A stretch of DNA of 64,000 nucleotides from an uncultured Bacteroidia bacterium. GTDB lineage: Bacteria; Bacteroidota; Bacteroidia; NS11-12g; UBA9320. The stretch is from NCBI GenBank assembly GCA_905478335.1, contig CAJQIC010000009.1, positions 62,001 to 126,000 on the forward strand, given 5' to 3'. A program made the translations under genes and the position numbers. A model generated the notes under the pieces. That model worked only from the letters and a program-made list of their open reading frames with translations. It searched no databases and was not told the DNA's origin. Each line of letters begins with the position of its first letter. The first letter of the stretch is position 1. Below are positions 1,958 through 61,766 of this stretch, one piece after another.

Positions 1958-2521
1958 GTGGATGTTTTAAGGGATTTTCTGAATCAACATATTGCGTTAT
2001 CAAATGCCGACTGGGTGGCCATTTCAGAACGGTTTAAACCAGAAACCTTCAACAAAAACGAAACCTTAACAAAAGCTGGTCAAACAGAAGGCAGGATGTA
2101 TTTCATAGTGAGAGGTGTTGTCCGCTTATATTACGAACTCGACCACAAGGATATCACGCTCAATTTTGCTTTTCCGAATGCCTTTGTTAATGCTTACACA
2201 TCGTTTCTAACTCAAGAACCCTCTGACTTTTTTTTAGAGGCTTTGACCAACTGCGAGCTGTTATCTATTGCGAAAGAAGACCTTTACGCGCTATATGATC
2301 ACACATCTTGTGGTCACGCACTCGGCAGGATATTCACAGAAAAACTGTTCTTGTATCTGTCGAAAAGAGAAAACGACTTTATGATCAAAACGCCGACCCA
2401 ACGTTACCTCGATTTATTTGACCAACAACCACATTTGATAAAGGAAATACCTCAGAAATACCTCGCCTCTTATATTGGAATTACCCCGCAAGCGTTGAGT
2501 CGCATAAGAGCAAAAATCTAA
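1958..2521 (+). CDS. Crp/Fnr family transcriptional regulator
   Basis: A 187-residue regulator with an N-terminal cyclic-nucleotide-binding-like beta-roll (about residues 20-115; NETLTKAGQTEGRMYFIVRGVVRLYY is split here as GQTEGRMYFIVRG). A dimer helix follows, and the protein ends in a short winged helix whose recognition helix is in ITPQALSRIRAKI. No cysteine cluster for an Fe-S centre is visible, so it is not a classical oxygen-sensing Fnr. The length fits the compact Bacteroidota members of the family. The start is GTG at 1958. An in-frame stop lies 12 bases upstream and no ATG lies between, so GTG is the only reasonable choice. The target genes are unknown; the divergently unrelated neighbours give no clue. 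Confidence 0.88.
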   Translation: MDVLRDFLNQHIALSNADWVAISERFKPETFNKNETLTKAGQTEGRMYFIVRGVVRLYYELDHKDITLNFAFPNAFVNAYTSFLTQEPSDFFLEALTNCELLSIAKEDLYALYDHTSCGHALGRIFTEKLFLYLSKRENDFMIKTPTQRYLDLFDQQPHLIKEIPQKYLASYIGITPQALSRIRAKI

Positions 2522-2601
2522 CGGCGATTAGTTAACCCTGGTTCATTGACCTGCACAATCTTCAATTCTTTATTTGCGCTATCAAAAAGAAACAAAGAAT
2601 T

Positions 2602-3060: not shown

Positions 3061-3097
3061 AAATATTTTACCAAACTAACCTTGAAAATAAGCGATA

Positions 3098-24706: not shown

Positions 24707-25207
24707 GTGGCAGAAATATACTTACAGAAACTCAAACACATAAAAGTATTCGTCTTTGACATAGACGGGGTGTTAACCGACGGTAATATCAATGTTACCG
24801 ATGACGGAGTTTTTTTCAGATCTACAAGCGTGAAAGATGGGTATGGTATAGCCAAAGCACTTAAAGCAGGATTTAAAATCGTTGTTATCAGTGGTGGATC
24901 CGCCGAAGGTGTAAAAATTAGACTAAATCGTCTTGGCGTTGACGATGTTTTCTTACACGTTAAAAACAAGCTTGAGGTTTTAGACAGTTGGTTGATGAAA
25001 AATAATTATCAGCGTGAAGACTGTTTAATGATGGGCGATGATGAGCCTGATTTAAAAGTAATGGCTGCTGTAGGCTTTTCTTGCTGTCCGTCAGATTCGG
25101 TTCAAAAAGTTAAAGATGCCGTAGACTATCAATCTCCCAACGTTGGAGGCAAAGGTTGCGTTAGAAACGTGATTGAAACCCGTCTCAAACTATCAAACGA
25201 CTGGTAG
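24707..25207 (+). CDS. kdsC: 3-deoxy-D-manno-octulosonate 8-phosphate phosphatase (KdsC-like HAD)
   Basis: A 166-residue HAD-IIIC phosphatase without a cap domain. It shows VFVFDIDGVLTDG (both catalytic Asp, about residues 18 and 20), VVISGGSAEGV (motif II), KNKLEVLDSWL (motif III Lys) and MGDDEPDLKVM (motif IV). It is the KdsC type that makes KDO for lipopolysaccharide. The usual KdsC C-terminal GGxGxVR tail is present (GGKGCVRNVIE). The start is GTG 24707, because no ATG lies in frame nearby. It is the last gene of the operon; the first of two small terminators follows about 120 bp later. Confidence 0.9.
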   Translation: MAEIYLQKLKHIKVFVFDIDGVLTDGNINVTDDGVFFRSTSVKDGYGIAKALKAGFKIVVISGGSAEGVKIRLNRLGVDDVFLHVKNKLEVLDSWLMKNNYQREDCLMMGDDEPDLKVMAAVGFSCCPSDSVQKVKDAVDYQSPNVGGKGCVRNVIETRLKLSNDW

Positions 25208-25279
25208 TCAATCAGTTGTGCTAGCAATGTTTTACTAGAAATAATTTGTGATTCATAAAATTTACACTTTCTTTGTCTA

Positions 25280-25353
25280 GCCTTTGTGAGGAGGCATTTT
25301 TTCATGGTTAGTTTGGTTTATTTGCCCTGCTCATTAGAGCGGGGCTTCTTTTT
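25280..25353 (+). ncRNA. candidate small RNA / mini-ORF cassette, copy 1
   Basis: Predicted 74-nt transcript. Upstream is TTTG, 19 bp, and TTTCTTTG (25268-25275), one base from the Bacteroidota -7 box. The RNA then holds GGAGG (25290-25294), a T-rich linker, ATG at 25304 and a terminator hairpin, stem GCCCTGCTC / GAGCGGGGC with loop ATTA and a T-tract (25324-25353). From 25290 to 25353 it is identical to copy 2. GGAGG lies 9 nt before the ATG, an ideal Shine-Dalgarno spacing, and the mini-ORF MVSLVYLPCSLERGFF runs through the hairpin. It could be an untranslated RNA, a leader peptide or both. Not matched to a known family by me; comparison with the Flavo-1 RNA model would be the first test. 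Confidence 0.6.
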
Positions 25354-25440
25354 AGTCACAATTTGCACATATAGTCACATGTACTATAAATAATCTGTTA
25401 ATTCTTGCAATTCACAAGTGAATGACCTTATCTTTGCTTC

Positions 25441-25514
25441 GCCTTCGAAAGGAGGCATTTTTTCATGGTTAGTTTGGTTTATTTGCCCTGCTCATTAGAG
25501 CGGGGCTTCTTTTT
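25441..25514 (+). ncRNA. candidate small RNA / mini-ORF cassette, copy 2
   Basis: Second copy, 161 bp to the right. Its -7 box is perfect, TATCTTTG at 25429-25436, with a TTG 21 bp ahead of it. The 64 bases from GGAGG to the end of the T-tract match copy 1 without a mismatch, while the upstream promoter region is only partly similar. This separation of conserved and diverged parts argues for selection or recent gene conversion on the RNA itself. The mini-ORF from ATG 25465 stops at 25521 (18 codons, same first 17 residues as copy 1). The terminator hairpin (25485-25506) also fits as the end signal for this RNA and may serve the leftward LtaS-like gene poorly, as the T-tract is on the + strand. 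Confidence 0.6.
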
Positions 25515-25530
25515 GCCCTAAACTGACGCT

Positions 25531-27348
25531 TTAATAATCTCTAAATTTTTCTGATGCAAATTGCGTGACGCCAAGAAGTTGGTTTTGCATTAGGTCTGAT
25601 ATGGAGTCGTTCTCTGTAGTGTTAACTAAAAACAAACTTCCTTTTATATCATAAACGATACATCCGTTTTCGTTAATAATCCCTGCACCCAACACGTAAT
25701 AATACAAAGCGTTAGAATTGTTGCTATCAAAAATTGACTTACTAAACTCATATTGGTCGGTAGGTGTATGCAGGATACTCTCGTGCAAAGACAGTGGGAT
25801 ATCTGTATGAGAACAGTAATGCGTATACCTTTTAGTGTGTTTCACTGCTCCGCCTGTCAATAACAAAGGCACCCTAAATTTTCTTGGACTCAAAAGAACC
25901 AAATTACCAGGATTCTTGACCCCATGATCGGCTGTCACAACGACCAATGTATTCTCCCAAACAGGGGAAGCACTTAACTTATCCATAAAAACCCCAAAGC
26001 AACTATCTGTATAGTAAATGGCTTTATAAAAGTCTGAGGTTAAGGAGTCTGAGGTATATGATACTGCCGGTATGTCGAAAGGTTCGTGGCTACTTAACGT
26101 ATATAAGGTCGAAAAAAATGGCTTTTTTGAATTAACGATATCGTTGTAATAATGTGCAAACATATCCTCATCCCGTACACCCCATTTCCCTTCGTTGTTG
26201 GTTGAAATGTCGTTACCAGTAACCACATCATCTACATTGCCATCACTGAATAATAGCTTCAAATTGGCAAAATCCAAATTGCCCCCATAATAAAACGACG
26301 TGTTATATCCTGCGTCTTTGAACCCCTTATAAACCTTAGGCACTTTTACTAATTTGTTGGGATGACTAAGCAATCTGGCATTGGGCAATGCCGGATAACC
26401 GGTAAACAAAGTAGTCAATCCTTTGTCCGAACGGTCGCCGCTAGCATAGCATTGCTCAAATGACAACCCGGTTTGCATCCATTTATTAAGATTAGGCGTT
26501 ATTCCATCAATCCCACCAATACTCGAAACAACGTTGGCTGTAAAACTTTCTAATACAATAAAAACGACATTACAATTCTTCTCAAATACCACTGCGGAAG
26601 TATCAGGTGCTGCTGGATAGGCTGAATTGTACCCTCTTTGCATGGATTTATTGTCGGTAAAATTAAACGTCGAAACTTCGCTTTCCGTTAAAGAAAATGC
26701 AGCGTTCCAAACCGGATTAACCGCTAAATGATTGGCAAAAGGTTGGCTAGAATAATACACCGTACTCACGTTCATGGTAGCCACGTCTAATCCACCACGA
26801 ATCGGCACTATCAAAATTCCAGCTAAAAACAGGGCCCATATGCTTGCACCTCGGTTTACTTCATAATTTCTAAGAAATCTCGTTATGCCATACCGATAAC
26901 ACCTGAGCATGAGGTAGGTAAAAACAATTGCCACCAAAACGACTATCCCCCAATCATACAAATTCGCAGATGCGAAAGCTTCCTTCGGCGTTTTAAGATA
27001 TTCTAAAATAGATCTGTCAATGTGATAACCCCAATAACTATAGAGTCGGCCGTTGATGATTAGAAAACCTGCCATTACGAAAACCAACAATCGATTCATC
27101 CAAAGAAGAATCTTTGGTAATGGTTTAAATGTAAATACGTTACACACCAAAATGACCAGCACATTCAAGAGGGTGACGTAACCTGCCATTGAAAAATCCA
27201 TTGGCAAGCCATGTGCACTAGCACTAACAAGTAGTGCCAGGTCAAGCCCGCTGTCTTGGATATTGAGGAGATAGAAAGACACTCTCCCGACCAAGAAAAA
27301 AATCGTATAAAATAAAAACAACAGTATACTTAGTCGAACTGTTTTCAT
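25531..27348 (-). CDS. LtaS-like sulfatase-fold membrane phosphoglycerol/phosphoethanolamine transferase
   Basis: A 605-residue protein with five N-terminal membrane helices (residues 5-195) and an extracytoplasmic sulfatase domain (about 240-540). Motifs: VVFIVLESFTANVVSSIGG (first metal ligand Glu), CYASGDRSDKGLTTLFTGYPALP (nucleophile region, cited as SGDRSDKGLTTLFTGYPALP), HEPFDIP, and VTADHG (metal Asp and His). In most Bacteroidota relatives I recall Thr in GDRTDKG; here Ser is present, which can still act as nucleophile. The family modifies envelope polymers or lipids with head groups taken from phospholipids; the acceptor here is unknown. It overlaps the FAD oxidoreductase gene upstream by 4 bp. 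Confidence 0.85.
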   Translation of the reverse strand: MKTVRLSILLFLFYTIFFLVGRVSFYLLNIQDSGLDLALLVSASAHGLPMDFSMAGYVTLLNVLVILVCNVFTFKPLPKILLWMNRLLVFVMAGFLIINGRLYSYWGYHIDRSILEYLKTPKEAFASANLYDWGIVVLVAIVFTYLMLRCYRYGITRFLRNYEVNRGASIWALFLAGILIVPIRGGLDVATMNVSTVYYSSQPFANHLAVNPVWNAAFSLTESEVSTFNFTDNKSMQRGYNSAYPAAPDTSAVVFEKNCNVVFIVLESFTANVVSSIGGIDGITPNLNKWMQTGLSFEQCYASGDRSDKGLTTLFTGYPALPNARLLSHPNKLVKVPKVYKGFKDAGYNTSFYYGGNLDFANLKLLFSDGNVDDVVTGNDISTNNEGKWGVRDEDMFAHYYNDIVNSKKPFFSTLYTLSSHEPFDIPAVSYTSDSLTSDFYKAIYYTDSCFGVFMDKLSASPVWENTLVVVTADHGVKNPGNLVLLSPRKFRVPLLLTGGAVKHTKRYTHYCSHTDIPLSLHESILHTPTDQYEFSKSIFDSNNSNALYYYVLGAGIINENGCIVYDIKGSLFLVNTTENDSISDLMQNQLLGVTQFASEKFRDY

Positions 27349-59915: not shown

Positions 59916-59988
59916 CAGGAGAGACAGGGATCGAACCTGCAACTTGCGGTTTTGGAGACCGCTGCTCTACCAATTGAACTACTCTCCT
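59916..59988 (-). tRNA. trnW: tRNA-Trp (CCA)
   Basis: 73 nt. Acceptor stem AGGAGAG / CTCTCCT, D-stem, anticodon loop CTCCAAA (anticodon CCA), T-loop TTCGATC. The CCA tail is not encoded. It stands between tuf and secE as in most Bacteroidota. Confidence 0.97.
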
Positions 59989-60045
59989 ATAATCATGTAG
60001 CCGGCAATAAAAATTGCCAGCTACTTGATATATATTATTTTATTA

Positions 60046-61233
60046 TTAATCTAAAATCTCAGTAACCTGTCCAGCACCAACTGTACGGCCACCTTCACGG
60101 ATTGCAAATTTCAATCCTTTTTCCATCGCTACTTTGTTGATTAAGTCAACAGTGATCGTTACGTTATCACCTGGCATAACCATTTCAGTACCTTCTGGCA
60201 ACTTGATTTCTCCAGTTACGTCAGTTGTTCTTAAGTAGAACTGTGGACGGTATTTGTTAAAGAATGGAGTGTGACGTCCACCTTCTTCTTTCGACAATAC
60301 ATAAACCTCAGCCTTGAACTTCATGTGTGGAGTTACTGAACCTGGCTTAACGATAACCATACCTCTTTTGATGTCGGTTTTCTCAACACCTCTTAATAAG
60401 ATACCTGCGTTATCACCTGCTTCACCTCTGTCTAGTAATTTTCTAAACATCTCAACCCCAGTACATGTAGATGCCATTTTCTCAGCACCCATACCGATGA
60501 TTTCAACTGGATCACCAACGTTGATTGTTCCTCTTTCGATTCTACCCGTAGCAACAGTACCACGACCAGTAATAGAGAATACATCCTCAACTGGCATCAA
60601 GAAATCTTGATCAACCAATCTTGGAGGAATTGGAATCCATGAGTCAACCGCTTCCATCAATTCGTTAATGGTAGACACCCACTTATCTTCTCCATTCAAT
60701 CCACCTAATGCAGATCCTTGGATGATTGGTGTGTTGTCAGCATCGAATCCGTAGAAATCAAGAAGTTCTCTGATTTCCATTTCAACTAACTCTAATAATT
60801 CTTCGTCGTCGACCATGTCAACTTTGTTCATAAAGATAACCAAACGAGGTACACCAACCTGACGTGCAAGAAGGATGTGTTCCTTTGTTTGTGGCATAGG
60901 ACCATCTGTAGCCGCAACTACAAGAATAGCACCGTCCATTTGCGCCGCACCCGTAACCATGTTCTTTACATAATCCGCGTGACCAGGACAATCTACGTGA
61001 GCGTAGTGTCTGTTCTCTGTTTGATACTCAATGTGAGCTGTATTAATCGTAATACCTCTTTCTTTTTCCTCTGGAGCAGAGTCAATAGCAGCAAAATCTT
61101 GCTTGTCAGCAAGGCCTGCATTAGATAATACGCTAGAAATAGCAGCTGTTAAAGTTGTTTTACCGTGGTCAACGTGACCAATGGTTCCAATGTTTACGTG
61201 TGGTTTGGAACGGTCGAATGTTTCTTTAGCCAT
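60046..61233 (-). CDS. tuf: elongation factor Tu
   Basis: A 395-residue EF-Tu. G1 [17 protein letters not shown]-type effector region (here [20 protein letters not shown], cited as [17 protein letters not shown]), [12 protein letters not shown] (G3), [10 protein letters not shown] (G4) and GSALGGL (G5). Domains 2 and 3 are complete. It brings aminoacyl-tRNA to the ribosome. One tuf gene is seen here; whether a second one exists elsewhere cannot be told. Flanked by tRNA genes on both sides. Confidence 0.99.
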
Positions 61234-61319
61234 GACTTAAAATAAATTACTTTTTAAAATTTTTTTTTAAACTTTTTTCCTTTGAGGATTATTTAAACAT
61301 TTTTTGCTGCGCTACTCAG

Positions 61320-61391
61320 AGCCAACGATGGGAATTGAACCCACGACCTCTTCCTTACCAAGGAAACGCTCTACCCCTGAGCTACGTCGGC
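61320..61391 (-). tRNA. trnT: tRNA-Thr (GGT)
   Basis: 72 nt. Acceptor stem GCCGACG / CGTTGGC with one G-U, anticodon stem TTTCC / GGAAG, loop TTGGTAA (anticodon GGT). T-loop TTCAATT. No CCA encoded. Confidence 0.96.
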
Positions 61392-61446
61392 TTATTGTAA
61401 GCCAACTTTGTCAGACAACGCCTGAGTTACATCGGCAACAACAGTG

Positions 61447-61519
61447 AGCGGGAGACGAGGCTCGAACCCGCGACCTACAGCTTGGAAGGCTGTCGCTCTA
61501 CCAACTGAGCTACTCCCGC
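61447..61519 (-). tRNA. trnG: tRNA-Gly (TCC)
   Basis: 73 nt. Acceptor stem GCGGGAG / CTCCCGC, anticodon stem ACAGC / GCTGT, loop CTTCCAA (anticodon TCC). Confidence 0.96.
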
Positions 61520-61595
61520 ATGTATGCCTCTGCTAATCGATCTTCAAAAAAGAAATCCTCATTAACTTTTTTGACATTTCAAATAACAAATGCAG

Positions 61596-61676
61596 TGGGG
61601 AGGGTAGGATTCGAACCTACGTAGCCGAAGCAACGGATTTACAGTCCGTCCCATTTGACCGCTCTGGTACCTCCCC
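61596..61676 (-). tRNA. trnY: tRNA-Tyr (GTA)
   Basis: 81 nt with a long variable arm (class II). Acceptor stem GGGGAGG / CCTCCCC, anticodon loop CTGTAAA (anticodon GTA). Confidence 0.95.
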
Positions 61677-61693
61677 AGAACAATAAAAAAAAG

Positions 61694-61766
61694 AGCCGCC
61701 TATTGGACTCGAACCAACGACCGGCTGATTACAAATCAGCTGCTCTACCAACTGAGCTAAGGCGGC
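61694..61766 (-). tRNA. trnT: tRNA-Thr (TGT)
   Basis: 73 nt. Acceptor stem GCCGCCT / AGGCGGC, anticodon stem GCTGA / TCAGC, loop TTTGTAA (anticodon TGT). First gene of the tRNA-tuf transcript. Confidence 0.96.

Follow-up and report, generated by a model that had tools for sequence, protein, structure and literature searches.

A conserved tandem pair of predicted small RNA genes in an uncultured Bacteroidota family

Comparative analysis of the window, i.e., the whole stretch of 64,000 nucleotides from an uncultured Bacteroidia bacterium, revealed a conserved tandem pair of predicted small RNA (sRNA) genes without an Rfam match. Judged from its sequence, the locus is not a sensor of the ribosome state, and it probably represents a previously undescribed regulatory RNA family of a known general kind, set apart from GibS and FopS by their descriptions. 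To our knowledge, a structure or mechanism has been described for few sRNAs of Bacteroidota other than Bacteroides. In Bacteroidota, translation initiation largely does without a Shine–Dalgarno sequence and without Hfq. The combination of covariation support, an invariant strand of 23 nt, and two copy-specific promoters makes the locus a clean test case for how sRNAs and mRNAs find each other in Bacteroidota.

Architecture and structure of the tandem units

Two units of 74 nt, counted from the start of the hairpin to the end of the T-tract, lie on the plus strand at 25280-25353 (copy a) and 25441-25514 (copy b). The order of elements is the same in both: a promoter, a 6-bp hairpin with mostly a GNRA loop, a 23-nt invariant unpaired strand (UUUCAUGGUUAGUUUGGUUUAUU), a 9-bp terminator, and a U-tract (Table 1). 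The initial annotation had described two cassettes that are identical over 64 bp from GGAGG to the T-tract (25290-25353 and 25451-25514), which was borne out, and one upstream A even extends the match to 65 bp without mismatch (25289-25353 and 25450-25514). The distance of 161 bp given for the cassettes is correct as the start-to-start period of the copies, but not as the gap between them; over an 84-nt unit, the copies share 93% identity. When a 22-nt piece of the repeat was searched for at ≤3 mismatches, the window contained two matches and 100 shuffles none. The objection that the repeat could be an assembly duplication fails, because the copies have different flanks and because the pair was found in five genomes that were assembled separately.

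Bacteroidota promoters follow a consensus of −33/−7 boxes. The promoter of copy a (TTTG/TTG-N19-TTYCTTTG) was recognized in G000, G001, G003, and G004; G002a clearly keeps the TTYCTTTG box only. The promoter of copy b (CTTG-N21-TANNTTYG) is present in all five genomes of the genus (G000 to G004). A terminator scan returned four terminator-like sites, compared to 0.6 expected in shuffles. Bacteroidota-type boxes and terminator scan confirm the promoter and the 9-bp-stem terminator that had been noted at each copy. The 5' hairpin with the following U-run (25280-25302 and 25441-25463) also scans as a terminator; it lies so near the transcript start that termination there is unlikely.

Table 1. 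Positions of the predicted sRNA elements, the neighbouring genes, and a second apparent sRNA. Positions refer to the window unless a contig is given.
Feature	Position	Strand	Basis
5' hairpin, copy a (GCCUUU-GUGA-GGAGGC; the 3' arm contains the supposed Shine–Dalgarno GGAGG)	25280..25295	+	fold, covariation
5' hairpin, copy b (GCCUUC-GAAA-GGAGGC)	25441..25456	+	fold, covariation
Invariant unpaired strand, copy a (UUUCAUGGUUAGUUUGGUUUAUU; presumed seed)	25300..25322	+	identical in 14 copies, four genera
Invariant unpaired strand, copy b (presumed seed)	25461..25483	+	identical in 14 copies, four genera
Promoter, copy a: TTTG (25245-25248), 19-nt spacer, TTTCTTTG (25268-25275)	25245..25275	+	read from sequence; a-type layout also in G001, G003, G004; second box in G002
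Promoter, copy b: CTTG (25404-25407), 21-nt spacer, TATCTTTG (25429-25436)	25404..25436	+	read from sequence; b-type layout also in G001-G004
Intrinsic terminator, copy a: 9-bp stem (25324-25345), then U-tract	25324..25353	+	fold, covariation, terminator scan
Intrinsic terminator, copy b: 9-bp stem (25485-25506), then U-tract	25485..25514	+	fold, covariation, terminator scan
Upstream neighbour: KdsC-like HAD phosphatase gene, marks the conserved site	24707..25207	+	Pfam HAD hydrolase; synteny
Downstream convergent neighbour: gene for a sulfatase-domain (LTA-synthase-like) membrane protein	25531..27348	-	Pfam Sulfatase; synteny
Second apparent sRNA, G000 (L150)	G000:C51, about 2300-2600		
Second apparent sRNA, G001 (L151)	G001:C46, near 46568		
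Second apparent sRNA, G003 (L152)	G003:C27, near 4562		

Thirteen copies could be aligned without difficulty; a fourteenth (G005) has the strand and the terminator but a different 5' hairpin. The 13 copies fold into the 6-bp hairpin (GNRA loop in 12 of 13), the unpaired strand, and the 9-bp terminator, with 99.5% of the 195 alignment cells paired, although such cell counts overstate the number of events, since the copies are related. Two-sided compensatory changes affect 7 of the 15 stem pairs, compared to 1.2 ± 1.0 in shuffles and ≤2 in slid controls, and are present in both helices. In the 5' hairpin, for example, GCCUUC/GGAGGC changes to GUCUUC/GGAGAC, and G007 has GCCUUA/UAAGGC. RNAalifold, unaided, returned the same structure. 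The covariation check on homologues that had been suggested for the repeat was favourable for both helices. Two points escaped the initial annotation: GGAGG is base-paired within the 5' hairpin, and the 23 nt that separate the two hairpins are the most constrained part of the unit. All 23 bases are invariant in 14 of 14 copies, and the upstream flanks go down to 55–87% identity between copies. Covariation supports the predicted make-up of the RNA, in which a 5' stem-loop is followed by the invariant unpaired strand and the terminator stem.

Phylogenetic range and history

Using a 75-base query, both copies were detected in all five genomes of the genus at the same site, i.e., 3' of the KdsC-like gene and before the convergent sulfatase gene. 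Single copies occupy this site in G009 and G007, which represent two other genera, we further found a diverged copy elsewhere in G005 (fourth genus), and G002 carries an additional copy on a different contig. All nine neighbouring genes have counterparts in the compared stretches of G001 to G004, eight have them in G009, and seven in G007; identity of the KdsC-like protein drops from 90% to 44% across these stretches. The genomes of the relatives are metagenome-assembled Bacteroidota. Homologues of the repeat, whose complete absence had been named as a reason to dismiss it, do exist, and conservation, synteny, and covariation support the earlier suggestion of a tandem small RNA pair with its own promoters and terminators.

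Covariance-model searches, both family-wide and order-wide, yielded no further convincing member; as they score only the best first-look candidates, diverged members may have been missed. The site 3' of the KdsC-like gene harbours no homologue in the genera g2, g3, g9, and g10. The sRNA family is narrow, comprising four genera of one uncultured Bacteroidota family. Plasmids had no match, and viral contigs had one match to the strand, located at a gene start on the opposite strand.

Regarding the history of the pair, the upstream flank of G000b is 87% identical to that of G001b and 80% to that of G004b, compared to 62% for G000a, and the duplication thus predates the split of these species. Terminator loops are species-specific and common to both RNA bodies, most clearly in G003, with 99% identity between its own copies and ≤95% to others. 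We infer, as the simplest account, that recombination keeps the two RNA bodies alike, with the promoters remaining different. A homogenised RNA body behind promoters that differ between the copies points to sibling sRNAs that are controlled differently.

Proposed function and alternative explanations

With moderate confidence, we propose that a pair of sibling genes at this locus specifies one ~74-nt non-coding, trans-acting sRNA, each gene being expressed from its own Bacteroidota-type promoter and ended by its own intrinsic terminator, both of which are read from the sequence and conserved. The invariant strand would serve as the seed, pairing imperfectly with mRNAs around the AUG and hindering ribosome loading, and the RNA may in this way act as a repressor of translation, like GibS and FopS of Bacteroides. 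The RNA end would be shielded by the 5' hairpin, which would also hold the seed open, and two copies with different promoters would place one RNA under two controls or provide a higher dose. The strand has the complement AAUAAACCAAACUAACCAUGAAA, which looks like a translation start of Bacteroidota. By a start-region profile (631 called genes), this complement scored above 97.6% of the called starts and 99.97% of other ATGs; this start-like look is largely due to A-rich composition, as 58% of the permutations of its upstream part score equally well. The exact complement also occurs at apparent gene starts in one Sunxiuqinia genome and one viral contig. Because of the start-like complement and the precedent of GibS and FopS, pairing with start regions is our best guess, and the RNA probably acts by base-pairing at start codons.

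Targets were analyzed in a sample of single stretches amounting to 817 kb, i.e., ~29% of the genome. Within these 817 kb, start regions paired no better with the strand than with its dinucleotide shuffles (9 of 60 shuffles were as good on the mean and 17 of 60 on the ten best), and no better than stop regions did. A search of five genomes for the complement of 25 nt at ≤3 mismatches recovered none except the sRNA genes themselves, complements of 16 nt and 18 nt were no commoner than a reversed control, and pairing with the neighbouring genes was weak (−5 to −13 kcal/mol). Three top-ranked targets were traced in orthologues, encoding an M1 peptidase, an outer-membrane protein, and a secreted sorting-domain protein. 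In all five genomes, the start region of the M1 peptidase pairs with the strand, with energies of −16.6 to −23.8 kcal/mol; the case is weak because genes starting with ATGAAAA pair well in general. Pairing is kept in three of five genomes for the outer-membrane protein, and for the secreted protein in one close relative, being weak in another, with two orthologues unscored. Two further sequences were recorded separately: ACCAAACTAACC, complementary to the sRNA strand, is located between convergent genes (window 3068-3090 in G000; G004:C6:63699-63716) and may be due to chance, and two species share a conserved GGGTTAGTTTGGTTTA at the end of a gene (G000:C30:69064-69081 and G001:C17:98498-98515).

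Sequences like the strand were also observed elsewhere. A second apparent sRNA, found in three genomes of the genus (Table 1), ends in AUAGUUAUUUUGGUUUAGUUA, a similar and unpaired strand, followed by a strong ACCGGAG/CUCCGGU terminator, and has a conserved upstream TATTGACC...ACTATAGTGC block. In several genomes of genus g11 of the related family f2 (L084, L086-L089), UUCAUAGUUAGUUUAGUUCA precedes a long terminator stem in the 3' region of a gene that we take to be dnaK from reading its C-terminus; this region is a possible 3'UTR-derived sRNA. Sequence similarity suggests that such strands recur in other RNAs.

The main rival to start-region pairing is that the invariant strand binds a protein, e.g., one of two RRM_1 (RbpB-like) proteins, and that the RNA is mainly a decoy or carrier. 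Each genome of the genus encodes two RRM_1 proteins, single-stranded stretches of sRNAs are bound by RbpB of Bacteroides (PMC11697453), the 23 nt are invariant without a detectable excess of targets, and a similar G/U-rich core recurs in the second sRNA. We nevertheless consider this role rather unlikely, given that 23 invariant bases are long for a single RRM site and that RRM proteins are general in the phylum. The strand could also be an all-purpose anti-start sequence that mirrors the A-rich mRNA starts of Bacteroidota. One RNA and its relatives with similar strands, namely the second sRNA of the genus and the dnaK-transcript 3' end in the related family, would then lower the translation of many mRNAs simultaneously and without any Shine–Dalgarno sequence. 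This reading appears improbable to us.

Three other explanations concern the unit as a whole. The initial annotation had seen an ideal Shine–Dalgarno sequence and a mini-ORF in each copy, whose translation would compete with termination, so that the RNA reports the ribosome state, or whose GGAGG would bind free 16S 3' ends. The motif (GGAGG, 9 nt, ATG) is indeed present in both copies, with the ATG at 25304 and 25465, but the GGAGG, by its covariation, forms the 3' arm of the 5' hairpin and varies together with the bases opposite: relatives read GGAGA, GGTGG, AGAGG, GAAGG, or TAAGG, or lack it, and the pairing with the 5' arm is kept. The mini-ORF itself ranges from 9 to >50 codons, with a different length in almost every copy, and in four copies its stop codon falls within the terminator; its six shared codons contain zero synonymous changes in 14 copies, so the constraint acts on the nucleotides. 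Furthermore, the tandem units are not followed by a gene on their own strand, the next gene being convergent, and the unit is therefore not a leader. The arrangement of leader-peptide or ribosome-sensing attenuators, a regulated gene preceded by a conserved ORF that has a ribosome-binding site, was not found at this locus, and a response to the ribosome state is very improbable. The locus demonstrates that a good-looking Shine–Dalgarno sequence can be merely a hairpin arm. A small protein gene starting inside each copy on the minus strand (MKK... frames) was rejected and is given next to no credence: a 58-aa ORF starts within the copy at 25305, but the frame ranges from 5 to 58 aa without conserved length or sequence among 14 copies, and the U-tracts as well as the promoter boxes speak for the plus strand. 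Finally, the position between convergent genes and the strength of the terminators would fit cassettes that mainly form a double terminator, with the KdsC-like operon insulated against the convergent sulfatase gene and the RNA as a by-product. However, a terminator requires neither an invariant 23-nt strand nor a covarying 5' hairpin nor a promoter, the U-tracts serve a single direction, and extra copies are located at other sites in G002 and G005, making this explanation quite improbable.

Comparison with known sRNAs

The suggested comparison with Rfam, including Flavo-1, identified no family for the locus: only tRNAs in the window reached the gathering threshold, and a permissive scan gave only weak, unrelated matches at the locus. 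A cluster of five tRNA genes was observed on the minus strand (window 59916-61766).

The predicted sRNA resembles several described RNAs. GibS of Bacteroides thetaiotaomicron (~145 nt) has an unpaired 5' end (positions 1-38) with two seeds and pairs with the start-codon region of target mRNAs (PMC7366714). GibS and the present RNA are both intergenic Bacteroidota sRNAs with an extended conserved unpaired seed, presumed in our case, and an intrinsic terminator; unlike GibS, the RNA described here comprises 74 nt with one strand and a 5' hairpin before it, and its targets are candidates only. FopS comprises paralogous sRNAs in 14 dispersed copies with a single-stranded 5' end, which repress SusC-type mRNAs at the start region (PMC11697453). 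It is likewise a multicopy Bacteroidota family with an unpaired conserved seed and then a terminator, whereas our RNA is encoded by two genes in tandem, has a covarying 5' hairpin, and is set apart by the description of FopS. A conserved unpaired strand followed by an intrinsic terminator is thus common to GibS, FopS, and the present family; an unpaired 5' end with the seed at the very 5' end is not, as the covarying 6-bp hairpin precedes the strand. Rfp18 of Flavobacterium psychrophilum, too, is an sRNA that is conserved in a Bacteroidota lineage and predicted to pair with mRNAs, but it is described as strongly folded, and its predicted pairing involves the third stem-loop (PMC9723704). Regarding the tandem arrangement, OmrA/OmrB and PrrF1/PrrF2 are known tandem sibling sRNAs (reviewed in PMC4211561); they are unrelated in sequence and phylum, but like them, the locus consists of adjacent, near-identical sRNA genes that each have their own promoter and terminator, with transcription being predicted in our case.
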